Shown piece after piece: positions 30,037 to 59,404 of a stretch of 64,000 nt of DNA. Origin of the DNA: Treponema sp. (GTDB taxonomy: Bacteria > Spirochaetota > Spirochaetia > Treponematales > Treponemataceae); the NCBI GenBank assembly GCA_012520945.1, contig JAAYNH010000097.1, forward strand, positions 1-64,000, written 5' to 3'. Position 1 is the stretch's first letter, and the number at the start of each line of letters is the position of its first letter. The notes under the pieces were generated by a model that saw only the letters and a program-made list of their open reading frames with translations, did not search any database and was not told the DNA's origin. Position numbers and translations under genes: made by a program.

Positions 30037-32283
30037 ATGAATGTTGAAATTCTTTCTCCGGCAGGAGATGCAAAAGCTTTTAAAGCTGCAATTGCAGCAA
30101 AGGCAGATGCAATTTATTTTGGACTTGGTACACTAAATGCTCGTGTACGAGCAAAAAATATTTCAAAAAAAGAATTACCTTATCTCATTGCTTTAGCAAA
30201 ATCAAAAAACATTAGAATCTATTTAACACTAAATATTTTACTCAAAGATTGTGAATTTGAAAATGCAATTGAAACTGTAAAGTATGCATATTCATGTGGT
30301 GTGGATGCAATAATTGTTCAAGATTTAGGATTGCTTCATATATTAAGAAAAATATTTTCCAATATAGAGATTCATGCTTCAACACAGTTAACAACACACA
30401 ATACTGAACAATGTAAGTTTTTGAGTGAGTTTAATGTAAATCAAATTAATCTTTCTCGTGAATTATCATTAAATGAAATTAAAAATATAAATCAATTTTT
30501 AAAAAGTAAAAGCATTGTAAGTGAAGTTTTTGTTCACGGTGCATTTTGTATTTCATTTTCCGGTCAATGTTATTTCTCTGAAAAATTATATAATCAAGCG
30601 GGCAATCGTGGTGAATGTGTTCAGCCATGTAGACGTTTATATAAAACGAAAGACAAAAGTTTTTCGGGTACACCATTCAATTTACGCGATAATAATTGTT
30701 TTGAAATAATTGATAAATTAATTCAAGCCGGTTGTGGTAGTTTAAAAATTGAAGGGCGTATTAAAGATGCAAATTATGTATATTCTGTTACAAGTGCATA
30801 TGTACAACAATTAGAAAATATAAAAGAGGAAAAAAAACTTTTGTTATCTTCAAAATTACTAAGTAATTCCATGAATAGAAATTTTACACATGATTATGTT
30901 AATGGAAATATTAGTAGCTCTATGTTTCATTTTGGTAAAAAAGATGAATCAATTGAAACAATCGGTAAAGTAAAAAAATATTTTGCTAAAGAAAAAATTT
31001 TAACATTACAAATAAATGATAATAAAAAAATTTTTGAAAATGATAAATTAATTATTAAAAATAAAAAAAATGAATTTGTTTGTACATGTATTATAAAAAA
31101 AGTTCTTTCAAAAAATTCTTGTGAAATTCAAATTACAAATAAATTATTTTCAAAAATTTTTGAAAACTTTTTTATTGAAAGACAATTGTTAGGTGTTCCT
31201 AAAAATTTTCTTGATAAACAAATTAATATTCTTGAAGAAAATTTTCAAAAGAATTTTGAAAAAAATAATTATCAAAAGATAAATACTATTAATATTAAAA
31301 ATAAAATATCTATTAATGTAAAAATTTTATTTTGTAATGATTCAAAAAAACTTAAATGCATTTTTTATTTTTATAATAAAAGAGGAGAAGAAAAAAAAGT
31401 TGAAGTTTTTTCAAAAACAATTTTAAGTTTAGCACAAAATAAATCATTAGAAAAAAATATATTCATAGAAAAATTTTCAAAACTTGGTGGTACAAATTAT
31501 CTTTTAGAAAAAATAGATTTTGATAACTCTCTTGAAAAATATTTTTTACCAATTAGTGAGTTAAATGAAATTAGAAGAAATGCCGTTACATTACTTGATA
31601 ATATAAATGATGAATCTTTTGTTAATCAAAATAAAATAATTTCAAAATTTTATTCACAAAATAATTTTTTTAACGATAATGAAAAATTATTTTTGTTTAC
31701 AGAACATAAAATTAAAATAATTGAAATTCCTAATTATATTAATTCAATTGATGAGATTGTTATAAATATAAAAAAACATAATGATGTTATACCATATTTT
31801 CCGGCAATTATTTTTGATGATGAATTAGTTAATCATGTTCAATTGTTAAATATATTACCAAGACAAAAAATTATTTGTGATAATTATGGTTTAGCATTCT
31901 ATGCCAGTAAAAAAGGATTTCAAATTATTCTTGGACAACGTATGAACATAACAAATTCTTTTTCATTACAATCATTCTGTGAAAAACTTAATGTTGTCGG
32001 TTTTATTCCTTCAATTGAAATGACTTGTAATGATGTTAAACAATTATATATTCCAAATAATATTATTATTTATAAAATACAAAATTATAATTTTCCTCTT
32101 CTAGAAAGTAGGCAATGTTTATTAAAAAATTTAACAGCTTGTAAAAAATATTTGTGTGATAAAGATTGTTTAATTAATTGTGAAAAAAAAATTCAGTTTG
32201 TTGGTCTACAAGGCGAAAAGTTAGTTGCTAAAAAAAGAAAAGGTTTTTATTCTGCGATTTTTTTTGATGAGGATATAAAATGA
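30037..32283 (+). CDS. U32-family protein (RNA hydroxylase type)
   Basis: The N-terminal ~300 residues are U32: LSPAGD at the start, IHASTQL, and the family pattern EVFVHGAFCISFSGQC (about 162-177), followed by GNRGECVQPCRR. U32 proteins such as RlhA and TrhP hydroxylate rRNA or tRNA with prephenate and an Fe-S cluster, rather than acting as proteases. Four conserved Cys are visible. The ~440-residue C-terminal part is very Lys/Asn/Ile rich, AT-driven and poorly conserved, ending in a Cys cluster (CKKYLCDKDCLINC). Its length suggests the RlhA-like long form. It overlaps the next gene by 4 nt. Confidence 0.85.
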   Translation: MNVEILSPAGDAKAFKAAIAAKADAIYFGLGTLNARVRAKNISKKELPYLIALAKSKNIRIYLTLNILLKDCEFENAIETVKYAYSCGVDAIIVQDLGLLHILRKIFSNIEIHASTQLTTHNTEQCKFLSEFNVNQINLSRELSLNEIKNINQFLKSKSIVSEVFVHGAFCISFSGQCYFSEKLYNQAGNRGECVQPCRRLYKTKDKSFSGTPFNLRDNNCFEIIDKLIQAGCGSLKIEGRIKDANYVYSVTSAYVQQLENIKEEKKLLLSSKLLSNSMNRNFTHDYVNGNISSSMFHFGKKDESIETIGKVKKYFAKEKILTLQINDNKKIFENDKLIIKNKKNEFVCTCIIKKVLSKNSCEIQITNKLFSKIFENFFIERQLLGVPKNFLDKQINILEENFQKNFEKNNYQKINTINIKNKISINVKILFCNDSKKLKCIFYFYNKRGEEKKVEVFSKTILSLAQNKSLEKNIFIEKFSKLGGTNYLLEKIDFDNSLEKYFLPISELNEIRRNAVTLLDNINDESFVNQNKIISKFYSQNNFFNDNEKLFLFTEHKIKIIEIPNYINSIDEIVINIKKHNDVIPYFPAIIFDDELVNHVQLLNILPRQKIICDNYGLAFYASKKGFQIILGQRMNITNSFSLQSFCEKLNVVGFIPSIEMTCNDVKQLYIPNNIIIYKIQNYNFPLLESRQCLLKNLTACKKYLCDKDCLINCEKKIQFVGLQGEKLVAKKRKGFYSAIFFDEDIK

Positions 32284-53694: not shown

Positions 53695-54696
53695 ATGAAG
53701 TTTTTTAATATTATGAAGAATATGAAAAGAATATTTACTTTGTTAGTTGCATTGATAACAATTTTATGTTTTGTCTCATGTTCCTCTGTGGCAAATACTC
53801 TGGCAACATCTCTTGCAGGAGCTGATAAAAAAGGAGTTCCGAATAAACCTAAAAAATCCGGCACCAATATGATGTTGCCTTTAGTTGGTGAAACCGATAC
53901 TGAGTTAATGGAAGATTTTTTTCCTACTGCCCTTAAATTGTATGAAATTTTACATACACAAAATCCCACTCATCAAGGTTTAGCAACAATGACCGGTTCT
54001 CTTTATGTCATGTATGCTAACGCATTTGTTCAAGCTAAAGCAGATATGATGTCCTTTGATTACTCTTTGATGGAAGAAGAAGGTCGCCAAATTCAAAGAG
54101 CAAAAATGCATTATCTTCGCGGACGTGATTATTGTTTAAATGCGTTTGAAATGCGTTATCCGGGTTTTATAAAATTAATGATGAGCAAAGATGAAAATAA
54201 TTTCAAAAAAGCCTTAGCTCAGCTAGATGTGAAAGATGTAAATAATGCATATTGGGCAGGAGCGGGCTGGCTCGGTGCTTTTAGCGTTGACCCGCTGGAC
54301 ATAGAAATTTTACCGACAATTAGTGGTGGGGTGGCTTTACTTGAACGTGCAGCCGAATTGGATCCTAATTATAATAATGGTGCCATTTGGGAAGTGCTTA
54401 CGGCTTTTTATGCAGCCGCTCCATATGACTTTGGTGGTGATAAAGATAGAGCACAAGTTTGTTTTGATAAAGCCATGGAAATTTCTAAAGGCAAGACAAT
54501 TAGTGTTTATTTGCTCAAAGCCACCGCTTATGCTATTCCAACACAAGACGTAAAAATGTTTGATGAATGCATTGAAAAAGCAATGTCCATAAATCCTGAT
54601 GATAATCCTAATACTCGATTAGCAACAACAATTTCGCGCCGTAAAGCCGAATATTTGAAAGCTCATCGTGAAGATTTATTTATTATATGGGAATAA
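53695..54696 (+). CDS. tatT: TRAP-associated TPR lipoprotein TatT
   Basis: Lipobox FVSC, then alpha-helical TPR-like repeats (NPTHQGLATMTGSLYVMYANAF, RGRDYCLNAFE). It matches T. pallidum Tp0956, which assembles with the periplasmic TRAP binding protein. Three Met are possible (53695, 53713, 53722); the last gives the best signal sequence. The stop overlaps the upstream codons of the next frame. Adjacent genes for the binding protein and permease complete the classic treponemal order. Confidence 0.9.
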   Translation: MKFFNIMKNMKRIFTLLVALITILCFVSCSSVANTLATSLAGADKKGVPNKPKKSGTNMMLPLVGETDTELMEDFFPTALKLYEILHTQNPTHQGLATMTGSLYVMYANAFVQAKADMMSFDYSLMEEEGRQIQRAKMHYLRGRDYCLNAFEMRYPGFIKLMMSKDENNFKKALAQLDVKDVNNAYWAGAGWLGAFSVDPLDIEILPTISGGVALLERAAELDPNYNNGAIWEVLTAFYAAAPYDFGGDKDRAQVCFDKAMEISKGKTISVYLLKATAYAIPTQDVKMFDECIEKAMSINPDDNPNTRLATTISRRKAEYLKAHREDLFIIWE

Positions 54697-54713
54697 TCCC
54701 AAAAGGAATTGAT

Positions 54714-55757
54714 ATGAAAGTGAAAAAATTTTTTACAATTTTAATTTTGGTTTTAGCTGCGAGCCTTAGTTATGCACAACAAAGAGTTACGATTAAAATC
54801 GCATCTGTTGCACCAAGTCGTTCTCCTTGGGAAATAGAACAAAAAAACTTAGCATTGGAATTTTCAAAAATTACCGGCGGTAAAGTTAATTTACAATTTT
54901 TTGATGTAAATGCTTTAGGCGGAGAAAACGGTGTAATTCAAAAAATGCGTTCAGTTCGTCCGGGGCAAAAAAGTCCGATTGATGGTGCTGTTTTGACAAG
55001 CATCGGAATTTACGAGCTTGCACCTAAATCCAATTCACTTACACTTTCTGTTCCGTTTTTGTTTCGTAATCAAGATGAATTAACATATATTTTGAATAAT
55101 TATTCAGATGAAATGCGAGACGCAATTCGTGAACAAGGTTTTGAGCTTTTAGGTTGGTTCAGTGTTGGCTGGGCAAATTTTTTAACAAAAGAAGAAGTTC
55201 GTACTCCGGAAAAAATAAAAGCACTTAGAATGAGTGTTGGTGGTTTTACAAGTCCTGAGCTTGGACGTGCTTTTCAAAAAGTAGGTTACACAACTGAAGA
55301 TTTGCCGAATGAAAAAATCATGGCCTCAATTAAAAGTGCAAATGGTGTAAAAGGTCTTTATACAATTCCAATGTATGCTTATGCAACACAATATTTTAAA
55401 AGTTTGCCATATATAATTGTAGAACCGCTTTGTCCCGTTATGACTGCTTTTGTAATTTCAAAAAAAGCGTGGGATACTATTCCTGATGAATATAAACCTG
55501 CATTAATTTCAGCAGTAAAAAAAGCTGAAAGTAAATTTATTGGTGTTCAACAAAAAAATGATAGTGAATTTTTAGACAAAATTGAAAAAGAAGGTGGAAC
55601 ATTAGTTCGATTAACTCCTGCAGAAATGAAACTTTGGGAAGAAACATTAACAGAAGATGCAAAAAAATTAGCAGAAGACAAAGATATAAAAGTTATTAAT
55701 GTCGATTTTCTTCAACGAGTTGATGCTGATTTAAGAAAATTTAGGGCAGGTAACTAA
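54714..55757 (+). CDS. tatP: TRAP transporter substrate-binding protein TatP (DctP family)
   Basis: A periplasmic binding protein of a TRAP importer, with signal peptide cleaved after SYA. The family stretch VTIKIASVAPSRSPWEIEQ and later VGGFTSPELGRAF and ALRMSVGG are seen. The homologue Tp0957 binds hydrophobic ligands. The upstream ATG at 54687 is in frame but 54714 has SD AAAGGA and a proper signal start, so it is preferred. The stop overlaps the permease start by one base. Confidence 0.92.
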   Translation: MKVKKFFTILILVLAASLSYAQQRVTIKIASVAPSRSPWEIEQKNLALEFSKITGGKVNLQFFDVNALGGENGVIQKMRSVRPGQKSPIDGAVLTSIGIYELAPKSNSLTLSVPFLFRNQDELTYILNNYSDEMRDAIREQGFELLGWFSVGWANFLTKEEVRTPEKIKALRMSVGGFTSPELGRAFQKVGYTTEDLPNEKIMASIKSANGVKGLYTIPMYAYATQYFKSLPYIIVEPLCPVMTAFVISKKAWDTIPDEYKPALISAVKKAESKFIGVQQKNDSEFLDKIEKEGGTLVRLTPAEMKLWEETLTEDAKKLAEDKDIKVINVDFLQRVDADLRKFRAGN

Positions 55758-57622
55758 TGAGATTTTTCAAAGAAAAACTTGTTCCCGCTTTTGCTAAAAT
55801 AGAAAATACAGTTGCAGTTATATTTACTCTGCTTTTAACAATTATTCCATTACTTGTAAAAATTTTTCAATGGATAAAAATACCAATCATTAATGCTGAT
55901 AATGCACAAGTAAATATTGTTATGATGTTTGCCTGTATAGCCGGAATGATTACATGGCGTGAAGGTCGTCATATTAGTCTTGCCACTTTGACAGATAATT
56001 TGACAGGCCTTCCCAAAAAAATTATTCACACTGTAAGAGCTAGTGCAGTTACGAGTATTTTGTGTGCAATGTTTTTTTATTCTTTTTCGCAACTAACTGT
56101 TTTTTATGCAGGGGAGAAAATTTGGGGTGTCCCTCTCAAAGCTGTTTTTGCATTTTTACCTTTTGCATATATGGTCATGCTTATTCGTTCCGTTATAAAA
56201 AGTGAACATAAAATTGCAAGTGTATTAGGCTTAATTTTAGGCATTGCCATTTCTGCTGGTCCCATAAGCGGAATATTGTATTCTCTATTTAATCTTGATA
56301 TTCCTTTTTTATATGACACATGGAACAACGCTTGGGTAAATTTCAGTTCTGTCGCCTTTGTGCCTTTAGTGATTTTACTCATCGTTTTAGCATTTATGGG
56401 AGTTCCCCTTTTTGTTGTAATTTCCGCAATTGCTTTTGTTTGCCTTTCACAATGTTGGGAAAATGTTGATGTTTTGGCCGAACAATCATATTCAATTTTG
56501 ACTGATAAAAGTATAGGTGCAATTCCTCTTTTTACAATTGCCGGATATATTTTTTCACAAGGAAGTGCCGGTAAAAGGTTAGTTGAAGTTTTCAAAGCAT
56601 TATTTGGTTGGTTCCGCGGAGGAACGGTAATAGCAACTGTTGTTGTTTGTACAATTTTTACAACATTCACCGGTGTTACGGGAGTAACCATTTTAGCATT
56701 AGGTTCGTTATTAACAGTTGCACTTTCCGGTTCGGGATTAAAAAAAGATGACAGTGAATCGCTAATTACTGCTTCCGGTGCATTGGGAATTTTATTTCCT
56801 CCAAGTGTTGCCATAATTATGTATGCTTCATCAAACTATTTTTCAGTAGATGTTTTTGATTTATTCAAAGGTGCGTTAATTCCAGGAATCATTTTAGCTT
56901 CTTCGATGATTATTATGGGCTTTATTAAAGATAAAAATCCTGATAGACCAAAATTTTCATTTAAGGCAATTTTTTCTGCATTAAAATATGGTGCCTTTGA
57001 ATTAGCAATGCCTATTTTAATTATGGCAGGATATTTTTCAGGATTTTTTACATTGATGGAAGCCGCTGCTTTTGCTGTAATTTATTCTTTTATTATTGAA
57101 ACTTTTATCCGTAAAGATTTTACTTTCAAACAAGCATTAAAGATTATCTCTGACAGTATTCCAATTACAGGCGGAGTTTTGATGATTTTAGCTGCAGCAA
57201 AAGGCTTGTCATATTATTTTGTAATTGCAAGTGTTCCACAAATCCTTACAGATTTTATTGCGGCTCATATTACAAACAAATATTTATTCCTTTTATTAAT
57301 GAATCTTTTTTTGTTGCTAGTTGGTTGTTTTATGGATGTTTTTTCAGCAATCTTAATTGTTTCACCTTTACTCATTCCTATTGCAGCGACTTTTGGCATT
57401 AATCAAGTTCACCTTGGCGTGATGTTTTTAATGAACTTGCAACTTGGTTTTTTGACTCCTCCTGTAGGAATGGATTTGTTTATTGCTTCTTATACTTTTG
57501 AAAAACCTGTGATGAAAGTCGTCAAAGGTATCTTACCTTATTTGTTAATACAATTTATTGTTCTTCTTTTGATAACATATGTACCTATTTTTTCAACATT
57601 TTTAGTACCAAATGCTTTGTAA
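55757..57622 (+). CDS. TRAP transporter fused DctQM permease
   Basis: 621 residues with about 16 hydrophobic segments. The N-terminal ~190 residues are the small DctQ subunit (four segments, with the WREGRHISLATL motif at the cytosolic loop); the rest is DctM, including GVTGVTILALGSLL and GFLTPPVGMDLF. Fusion of Q and M matches Tp0958 of T. pallidum. It transports an organic anion driven by an ion gradient; the ligand is unknown, possibly hydrophobic. Confidence 0.93.
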   Translation: MRFFKEKLVPAFAKIENTVAVIFTLLLTIIPLLVKIFQWIKIPIINADNAQVNIVMMFACIAGMITWREGRHISLATLTDNLTGLPKKIIHTVRASAVTSILCAMFFYSFSQLTVFYAGEKIWGVPLKAVFAFLPFAYMVMLIRSVIKSEHKIASVLGLILGIAISAGPISGILYSLFNLDIPFLYDTWNNAWVNFSSVAFVPLVILLIVLAFMGVPLFVVISAIAFVCLSQCWENVDVLAEQSYSILTDKSIGAIPLFTIAGYIFSQGSAGKRLVEVFKALFGWFRGGTVIATVVVCTIFTTFTGVTGVTILALGSLLTVALSGSGLKKDDSESLITASGALGILFPPSVAIIMYASSNYFSVDVFDLFKGALIPGIILASSMIIMGFIKDKNPDRPKFSFKAIFSALKYGAFELAMPILIMAGYFSGFFTLMEAAAFAVIYSFIIETFIRKDFTFKQALKIISDSIPITGGVLMILAAAKGLSYYFVIASVPQILTDFIAAHITNKYLFLLLMNLFLLLVGCFMDVFSAILIVSPLLIPIAATFGINQVHLGVMFLMNLQLGFLTPPVGMDLFIASYTFEKPVMKVVKGILPYLLIQFIVLLLITYVPIFSTFLVPNAL

Positions 57623-58838
57623 TGTTTTTTTTAAACGCCGCATTTTTTATGTGGCGTTTTTGTTTTATTTTTTTTCACTGTCACAAATTTATTCCTATGA
57701 TATTAAAGCTAAAACGTTTAATAATAGGATTTGGCAAGAAAAAATTTTTTTATTAAAACAAAATTTTCATAAAGAAAAACTTTTAAATAATTTGGTTCAC
57801 TCAATGGCTTTAAGAGAAAAAATATCTCAAATGCTTCTTGTAAATATTGAAGGAAAAGATAAATTTATTCCAATTAATGATTTTAAAAAGGGTGGTGATA
57901 AAAAAATTTTACCGGGCGGATATTTACTTTTTTCTTTTAATATTGCTGAAACAAAAACAAAGACAAAAAATTTTTTACAAACTGTAAAAGAAGCACATTT
58001 GGAAAAAACAACAATAGCTCCATATTTTTCAATTGACCATGAAGGCGGATATGTAAATCGATTAAAAAATTTTTCAACTGTCCCTTTATTTTCTCCGGAA
58101 AAAATTGCTAAACAATTTTCAAAAGAAGAGGCTTTTAAAATTTACAAAAATGAAGCAAAGCTATTAAAAGAATTGGGTATTCATATAAATTTTGCTCCGA
58201 TTGTAGAAATTAAAACTGCAGCAAATTCTTCTTTTATAGAAGATAGAAGTTTCGGTTCATTGAATGATGTTTTAAATTATGCATCAACACAAGTTTTGGC
58301 TTTTAATTCTGAAGGTGTTTATTCTGTTCTCAAACATTTTCCGGGAAATTCTGCTGATGATCCTCATGTTAAAAAATGTATTTTAGATGTTGATGAGAAA
58401 TATTTTAATGAAGTTTTGATTCCACCTTTTAAAAATATTATTTTAACTAATCCGGCTGGCATTTTAATTTCCCATGTAATGATTCCATCAATTGATTTAG
58501 AACCTTCATGTTTTTCAAAAATAATTATTACAGATATTTTAAGAAATCGTTTAAAATTTTCTCGCATTATTTTTTCAGATGATATTTATATGGCATCATT
58601 TATTGAAATAAAAAGCGGTTCTGAAAATGTCACTGATAAAGAAGCTGCAATTTCTGCAACCAAAGCAATTAAAGCAGGAATTAATGTAATAATGAGTAGT
58701 GAAAAAAAATATCTTAATCTTGTTGAAGAAATTGCAAAGTTGACAATTAATGATGATATATTAAAAAATAAAATTAATGAATCTGTAAAAATTATTTTAC
58801 GTGAAAAAGAGAAGTTAGGACTTGTAAAAATCTTTTAG
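57612..58838 (+). CDS. Exported GH3 (NagZ-like) glycoside hydrolase
   Basis: A 408-residue protein with a signal peptide (KRR, hydrophobic core, cut near SYS/YD). GH3 features are the substrate loop IDHEGGYVNRL, KHFPGNSADDPHV (the His-Asp pair of NagZ) and the nucleophile Asp in IFSDDIYMAS. It probably removes N-acetylglucosamine or another sugar; exported NagZ would work on peptidoglycan or chitin-like material. The start ATG at 57612 overlaps the TRAP stop by 11 nt, and a terminator hairpin lies inside its signal-peptide codons. Confidence 0.85.
   Translation: MLCNVFFKRRIFYVAFLFYFFSLSQIYSYDIKAKTFNNRIWQEKIFLLKQNFHKEKLLNNLVHSMALREKISQMLLVNIEGKDKFIPINDFKKGGDKKILPGGYLLFSFNIAETKTKTKNFLQTVKEAHLEKTTIAPYFSIDHEGGYVNRLKNFSTVPLFSPEKIAKQFSKEEAFKIYKNEAKLLKELGIHINFAPIVEIKTAANSSFIEDRSFGSLNDVLNYASTQVLAFNSEGVYSVLKHFPGNSADDPHVKKCILDVDEKYFNEVLIPPFKNIILTNPAGILISHVMIPSIDLEPSCFSKIIITDILRNRLKFSRIIFSDDIYMASFIEIKSGSENVTDKEAAISATKAIKAGINVIMSSEKKYLNLVEEIAKLTINDDILKNKINESVKIILREKEKLGLVKIF
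57633..57669 (+). terminator. Terminator after the TRAP permease, inside the GH3 gene start
   Basis: Stem AAACGCCGCAT (57633-57643) / ATGTGGCGTTT (57649-57659), loop of five T, tail TTTGTTTTATTT. It lies 11 nt beyond the permease stop but within codons 8-18 of the next gene. Confidence 0.88.
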
Positions 58839-58847
58839 GGTAATATT

Positions 58848-59404
58848 ATGAGTGATTTTGAAAAGCGTATTTTATTTAAAGATAAAAATTTTGCTATTAT
58901 AAATAAAAATGCAGCAACTAAACTTAGTTTATTATTTTCTAAAAGAGAAAAAGTAAATAAAGTTTATTGGGCAATAGTTGAAGGAGTTATACAATCATTT
59001 GATGAATATAAAAAAGCTGAGCATTATATTTATTTTGATTTAAAAAACAAAAAGCATATTGTTCAAATGATAAATATAAAAAATCAAAAAAAGCCGAGCT
59101 ATTATGGAGATGTACAGGGCACGGTGAACGTTATTCATTTTTGGAAATTATTTTACTCACAGGTAGAACTCATCAAATTCGTTGTCAACTTGCCGCTGAA
59201 AATATACATATTAAAAGGGATTTAAAATACGGTGCTAAACGTAATGATACATTAAATGGTATTAGACTTCATTCTGCAAAAATTGAATTTACAAATCCAT
59301 TTGATGAAAAAGAAATTTCTGCATTAGCACCATTACCACAAAACGATATTTTATGGAATACTTTTTTAGAAAATATAAATAATAAAAAACATCCGGAAAA
59401 TTAA
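58848..59404 (+). pseudogene. RluA-type pseudouridine synthase, decayed
   Basis: Two out-of-frame pieces. The first (58848 to about 59090) reads LFKDKNFAIINK and jumps directly to KLSLLFSKREKVNKVYWAIVEG; the intervening ~40 residues with the catalytic HRLD motif of RluA are missing. At the poly-A (59084-59092) the frame slips (one A short). The second piece carries RYSFLEIILLTGRTHQIRCQLA, the RluA C-terminal signature, and ends at 59404. Loss of the catalytic Asp shows this is a true pseudogene, not a sequencing slip. Confidence 0.88.

Follow-up and report, generated by a model that had tools for sequence, protein, structure and literature searches.

In the rph-pyrE, pyrBI and ampC attenuators of Escherichia coli, a terminator lies close behind a translated frame, and the proximity of the ribosome decides how much transcription reads through. 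Engineered E. coli constructs point in the same direction: as described in the portions of Li et al. (PMC4824070) that deal with coding-region termination, where the pyrBI attenuator is also discussed, terminators placed within 100 bp of the beginning of a coding region are functional, and they are repressed close behind a stop codon. The tR2 terminator is nearly fully repressed a few bp behind the stop codon and regains full strength beyond ~27-30 nt, and termination shifted by only ~10% when a start codon 30 bp ahead of it was silenced (PMC4824070). In the relevant sections of genome-wide studies, 3' ends inside open reading frames (ORFs) are numerous in E. coli (PMC7815308), and 63% of the 3' ends of the spirochaete Borrelia burgdorferi lie upstream of or inside ORFs, with 5' RNA fragments of potB arising near the potA-potB coding overlap (PMC10319736). 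Terminators inside operons that set expression ratios are established in Methanococcus maripaludis, according to the part of PMC10450193 that treats them. Here we describe a terminator-like hairpin with a U-rich tail in Treponema sp. contig JAAYNH010000097.1 (positions 1 to 64,000 of the forward strand; this whole stretch of 64,000 nt is the window throughout), where a tripartite ATP-independent periplasmic (TRAP) transporter operon is followed by an overlapping gene for a glycoside hydrolase of family 3 (GH3). The element is probably a leaky intrinsic terminator that ends the TRAP operon inside the signal-peptide codons of GH3 and would keep GH3 below the transporter.

The hairpin has the form AAACGCCGCAT-TTTTT-ATGTGGCGTTT (57633-57659), with 11 pairs, 5 of them G-C, and a folding free energy (dG) of -14.9 kcal/mol; it begins 10 nt past the permease TAA and 21 nt past the GH3 ATG at 57612. 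Both ingredients of an intrinsic (Rho-independent) terminator are present, a GC-containing stem-loop and a U-tract directly 3' of the stem, and the GH3 frame runs through them. A sequence-only reading of the window had proposed such an element after the permease and within GH3 coding sequence, with an 11-nt overlap of the two genes, and the 11-bp stem, the U-rich tail and the gene coordinates all agree with it. It placed the hairpin in codons 8-18; the hairpin itself takes up codons 8-16 and the tail codons 17-22. The n-region and hydrophobic core that it described are found as K8 R9 R10 followed by IFYVAFLFYFFSLS, the charged n-region and core of a Sec signal peptide as judged from the translation and a simple hydropathy rule, which the stretch passes. 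The window GH3 has no lipobox-like Cys, unlike most of its relatives.

In a 91-nt fold the minimum free energy is -15.4 kcal/mol (z -2.12), a value equalled or bettered by 5 of 200 dinucleotide shuffles. The inner stem pairs have probabilities of 0.97-1.0 in four folded stretches of 161-266 nt, and no competing long-range pairing or antiterminator structure is seen in these four; because the hairpin dominates all of them, we rejected a leader attenuator with an antiterminator. A known RNA family was rejected as well, since no Rfam family reaches its gathering score in 57200-58000 (three sub-threshold matches, the best with 21.4 of 43 bits). Agreement with the terminator consensus is by itself weak proof, because 5 terminator-like sites are found in 54-62 kb where 4.1 are expected by chance, although the junction stem is the longest of the five. 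The codons are more telling. When they are redrawn from the gene's own usage with the protein unchanged, which is the synonymous null used below, 0 of 200 recodings reach -14.9 kcal/mol (null minimum -9.7), so the protein sequence alone does not account for the hairpin.

The window's genus consists of one genome, and the closest homologue outside it is ~40% identical. Family and genus searches (195 and 200 genomes, overlapping) yielded at least 38 relatives in which permease and GH3 adjoin, 24 of the 38 from one genus, and these together with the window make up 39 junctions. Nine permease ends (L098-L106) are omitted because the fetched sequence shows no GH3 beside them: in L098 a GH3 gene lies 3.1 kb further on, and contig ends truncate L099, L102 and L105. 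Scanned for a hairpin of dG <= -12 kcal/mol with a T-rich stretch directly behind it (5 T or more in 8), 17 of the 39 junctions carry an element, compared with 5.5 expected under the synonymous null, in which none of 200 pooled replicates exceeded 10. With the limit set at dG <= -14 the count is 15 against 3.5 expected (null maximum 9), and 13 of the 17 junctions have a synonymous-null fraction of 0.05 or less individually. Some GC-rich rows pass -12 easily under the null (74% of redraws for L090, 65% for L095, 59% for L092). The sequence-only reading had named conservation in relatives as a check; what recurs is similar elements at roughly the same position, whose sequences differ between lineages and whose exact distances from the GH3 start vary. 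Their reappearance suggests that operons repeatedly use this means to lower expression of their last gene. Among other genomes, 44 have a permease match (20 in the same family and 24 in other families, permease ~38-43% identical) and 43 of these have GH3 matches, with none adjoining among the matches listed, from assemblies that are fragmented. A 1.1-Mb genome from the window's family retains the TRAP permease, and it alone of the 195 family genomes gave no GH3 match.

The element goes with the permease-GH3 junction, not with the GH3 protein itself. As a control we used 40 GH3 genes without a neighbouring permease match, all from one genus, and centred the scan on the hydrophobic core. At dG <= -12, 15 of 39 linked leaders pass as against 3 of 40 unlinked ones, and at dG <= -14 the counts are 13 of 39 and 0 of 40; background gene starts pass in 14 of 307 cases (signal-peptide-like starts in 7 of 83, window gene included). 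It is because of this difference between linked leaders, unlinked leaders and other starts that we assign the element to the junction.

Its history was followed on a tree of concatenated permease and GH3 sequences, on which the window branch is long and its placement unsure. The element is found in every member of two small well-supported clades (L084/L111/L108 and L082/L083/L085), and its presence is mixed in the L081-L113 group; presence turns over on the tree, and the element is not essential to the junction. Compensatory pairs, read by eye from the alignment as single cases, occur in two stems. One stem pair is A-U in L084, G-U in L111 and C-G in L108, and between L084 and L108 the stem stays paired across an Ala/Thr and a Leu/Arg difference. 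The second stem has a G-C pair in L090 where L092 has A-U, and the two differ there by Pro/Leu; its U-tract begins only after 7 nt, and L090 is not counted as a terminator, L092 being counted for another pairing register. The G012 hairpin has a larger loop and a different stem, of which the homologous K-R codons make up one arm; this points to an independent origin. Deep conservation of a single hairpin was rejected: the genus has a single genome, its nearest outside homologue is distant, and the G012 stem is different.

Taken together, the hairpin and its tail, the coding they share with GH3, their recurrence, their association with the junction and their excess over codon-based expectation lead us to infer termination that would be leaky, with a lower level of GH3 and a gate formed by ribosomes. 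Because permease and GH3 overlap and leave no intergenic space, the terminator would have to sit in GH3 codons. Many transcripts would end at ~57665-57675 and serve as transporter mRNA; the remainder would read through and give the NagZ-like GH3, which would be less abundant than the transporter because it is made by read-through. The T-rich hydrophobic core would supply the U-tract, so that all that is still required is an inverted repeat, rich in GC, close to the n-region, and unrelated hairpins could arise here repeatedly. A permease ribosome standing at its stop codon, 10 nt upstream of the hairpin, while RNA polymerase passes the tail would probably raise read-through; GH3 initiation itself would have little effect. 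By analogy with E. coli, where a nearby stop codon represses strongly and a start codon 30 bp upstream has an effect of ~10%, the permease ribosome is the likelier gate of the two. Terminated transcripts with an initiated frame are non-stop mRNAs, a cost noted in the pertinent part of PMC4824070, and those that carry an initiated GH3 frame would be of this kind.

Several observations weigh against a leaky terminator at this junction. No strong element is present in 22 of the 39 linked junctions, and presence is scattered: 12 changes are needed on the tree, and 191 of 500 shuffles are as low. Four of the 17 hits (L071, L087, L089 and L092) are not individually significant, the tails of L087 and L092 are poor, the element of L076 may lie ahead of where GH3 truly starts, and centring the scan on the signal peptide removes L071 and L076 from the hits. 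For linked against unlinked leaders the Fisher p (0.0012) overstates the difference, the rows being related, and the unlinked controls come from one genus only, as do 24 of the 38 linked relatives. The spacer between permease stop and hairpin runs from ~4 to 37 nt among the 17 element-bearing junctions. A translation-gated attenuator of the pyrE/pyrBI type should have its hairpin within ribosome reach of a translated frame, as is the case here, and by our own yardstick should keep that spacing in relatives, which this range does not; gating by the permease ribosome is thus not a fixed design.

The sequence-only reading had suggested a different gate: ribosomes that start at 57612 would move into the hairpin and block termination, so that GH3 translation would promote GH3's own transcription. 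The geometry invites the idea, since the hairpin begins 21 nt past the start codon and a ribosome within its codons would melt it. However, a ribosome on the start codon would reach only ~57627 by our estimate; it falls short of the stem, and several codons would have to be translated before polymerase clears the U-tract, which is why this control is not well supported. Moreover, the start codon 30 bp upstream of tR2 shifted termination only ~10% in the E. coli experiments reported in that part of PMC4824070, no Shine-Dalgarno-like 4-mer precedes 57612 although 172 of 307 genes have one, and the distance from start to hairpin is inconstant in relatives. We consider an attenuator driven by GH3 initiation improbable.

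An ordinary end-of-operon terminator would leave the hairpin intergenic, with GH3 starting further on (GTG 57651, TTG 57660, TTG 57792 or ATG 57804) from its own promoter; a true start downstream of 57670 was the outcome that the sequence-only reading had named as refuting it. The GH3 domain begins at residue 67, so that a start at 57804 (residue 65) would retain it, and the lack of a Shine-Dalgarno-like 4-mer ahead of 57612 (57592-57611) fits such a start. However, 57651 and 57660 lack one too, as does 57804 by eye; the 307 genes compared are a sample of the same genome, in which 17 of 42 overlapping gene starts sampled have none either. Initiation at 57612 may therefore require ribosomes that re-initiate once the permease is finished. 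An open frame extends from 57606, and homologues share both it and a signal-like peptide across the region: the BLASTP alignment with the G012 homologue begins at residue 3 and crosses the hairpin codons at 37% identity, all 38 relatives have a hydrophobic signal-like stretch ahead of the GH3 domain in the same open frame (mean hydropathy of 11 residues at least 2.33), and the GH3 frame of relatives begins at the permease stop or close to it. Nor does 54-62 kb contain more promoter-like sites than chance would give (34 versus 39.3 expected). A GH3 start at 57612 is likely, and the intergenic alternative is disfavoured, to the point that we would call it very improbable.

The hairpin might instead act after transcription, guarding the 3' end of the transporter mRNA or dampening GH3 translation with no termination at all. 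The GC-rich stem that L090 and L092 share, with its compensatory difference and its displaced U-tract, speaks for such a role. In the counted cases, on the other hand, the T-rich tail follows the stem directly, which a terminator requires and a simple barrier would not, a weak argument in that the scan demanded a tail; we think a purely post-transcriptional hairpin highly unlikely. Least credible is chance, a fortuitous inverted repeat beside T-rich hydrophobic codons, which would suit the scattered tree distribution and the consensus scan of the 8 kb and is contradicted by the synonymous null, the unlinked GH3 control and the compensatory differences.

Does the leaky terminator of the TRAP-GH3 junction represent a wider class? 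A codon-null survey of 807 genes in 1,060.5 kb found 26 starts passing -12 where 14.7 are expected (eight classes summed), so that generality over all genes is weak and was rejected as a claim. In the window genome 7 of 307 starts pass in all, among them 2 of 43 tight signal/membrane starts (0.3 expected, one being the window gene) and 2 of 83 tight soluble starts (0.4 expected); in the other genomes the counts are 4 of 52 (2.6 expected) and 6 of 154 (3.5 expected), respectively. The ratio of excess in the window genome is equal for tight soluble and signal/membrane junctions, a further point against our reading, and these counts give the signal peptide no special standing beyond this junction. 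Because the survey excess is modest and not larger for signal/membrane genes, embedded terminators beyond TRAP-GH3 are at most an occasional device. Selection on the tail codons was also considered (123 T in the 17 tails, 112.3 expected) and given no weight, the hits having been picked for T-rich tails.

Three further sites were seen along the way. In the window's own genome, an ATP-binding cassette (ABC) permease gene (L126, PF00528; G000:C13, 11469-12125, minus strand) starts 18 nt downstream of the gene for a family-3 binding protein (PF00497); its codons 9-17 contain the hairpin CTTGAGGGA...TCCCTCAAG (-13.8 kcal/mol) plus a U-rich tail, 42 nt past the binding-protein stop; 0 of 40 synonymous redraws of this start reach -12, and it is a possible second embedded terminator. 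A lipoprotein-like ORF (L144; G101:C1, 7548-8111, minus strand), for which no Pfam match was found, starts 3 nt past the stop of the upstream frame and holds AAAGCGGGAAA...TTTCCCGCTTT plus GTTTTTTTTG in its signal-peptide codons. Within the window, an ORF at 30037-32283 (plus strand) has a terminator-like hairpin of -15.5 kcal/mol with the tail ATTTATTTTG ~30 nt into it.

We offer, as a possible though doubtful extension, that signal-peptide codons are ready-made terminator tails, that selection may repeatedly build GC-rich inverted repeats near the n-region at tight Treponema-like junctions, and that the export tag would thereby become a leaky, translation-sensing valve. On this view selection for the hairpin may even outweigh selection for the amino acid, as the residue differences between L090 and L092 and between L084 and L108, which leave the stems paired, suggest. 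Even in its narrower form, a natural, apparently repeatedly evolved candidate terminator that is doubly encoded with an export signal opens the question of how operon gene ratios are set without intergenic space, with ribosomes at the upstream stop as a candidate gate. It also counsels caution in annotation: a U-tract behind a hairpin does not establish that a boundary is intergenic, and the mere wish to avoid such a structure is no reason to shift a start codon downstream.

The features of the locus are collected in Table 1. The TatT-like, DctP-type and fused permease genes form the TRAP transporter operon, followed by the GH3 ORF. Among hexosaminidases in the PDB the best match to GH3 has E 1.4e-22; against PRK05337, the NCBIfam equivalog for NagZ-type GH3 proteins, it scores 119.5 of 207 bits, below the cut-off. 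After GH3, a 125-aa ORF (58848-59225, plus strand) has a partial, below-threshold match to pseudouridine synthase (PF00849, positions 58-118 of 152) and is perhaps a truncated or decayed gene.

Table 1. Genes and sequence elements around the TRAP-GH3 junction (window positions)
Feature	Position	Strand	Evidence or remark
TatT-like TRAP-associated lipoprotein	53695..54696	+	PF16811 TAtT, E 2.3e-86
DctP-type TRAP solute-binding protein	54687..55757	+	overlaps preceding gene; PF03480, E 1.7e-37
Fused TRAP permease (DctQ + DctM)	55757..57622	+	PF06808 E 2.4e-84, PF04290 E 1.9e-6; stop TAA 57620-57622
GH3 hydrolase resembling NagZ/YbbD-type beta-N-acetylhexosaminidases	57612..58838	+	PF00933 residues 67-396, E 2.8e-45
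Signal-peptide coding region, ~29 codons, end estimated	57612..57698	+	translation, N-terminal alignment to homologues
Spacer TGTTTTTTTT, 10 nt, permease stop to hairpin	57623..57632	+	
Candidate terminator hairpin, 11 bp, 5-nt loop, GH3 codons 8-16	57633..57659	+	scan, folding, synonymous null
U-rich tail TTGTTTTATTTTTTTT, codons 17-22, also encodes part of hydrophobic core	57660..57675	+	

How does the TRAP-GH3 element compare with described systems? The rph-pyrE, pyrBI and ampC attenuators are intercistronic or lie in leader peptides and answer to known signals; our analysis points to no such signal for this one. In the titles and abstract openings that we covered, which represent little of the subscription literature and are thus weak evidence, we found no description of terminators encoded in signal peptides. 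The potA-potB case resembles ours in being a spirochaete transporter operon with a coding overlap, with truncated RNAs at the start of potB and a proposed link to translation (PMC10319736, in its passages on potB). By contrast, the potB fragments are spermidine-responsive and experimentally mapped, their mechanism is left open, and those passages describe no signal-peptide terminator (PMC10319736). As in Methanococcus maripaludis, termination between operon genes would lower the downstream gene, yet the terminators described in that part of PMC10450193 are intergenic and archaeal, and the TRAP-GH3 element lies inside the downstream coding sequence. The closest likeness is with the engineered tR2 constructs as presented in the sections of Li et al. 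noted above (PMC4824070), in which a terminator a few nt past a stop codon, or 30 bp past a start codon, has an efficiency that depends on ribosomes. Unlike those synthetic constructs, the TRAP-GH3 junction is natural, recurs in relatives and has a signal peptide as its coding context.

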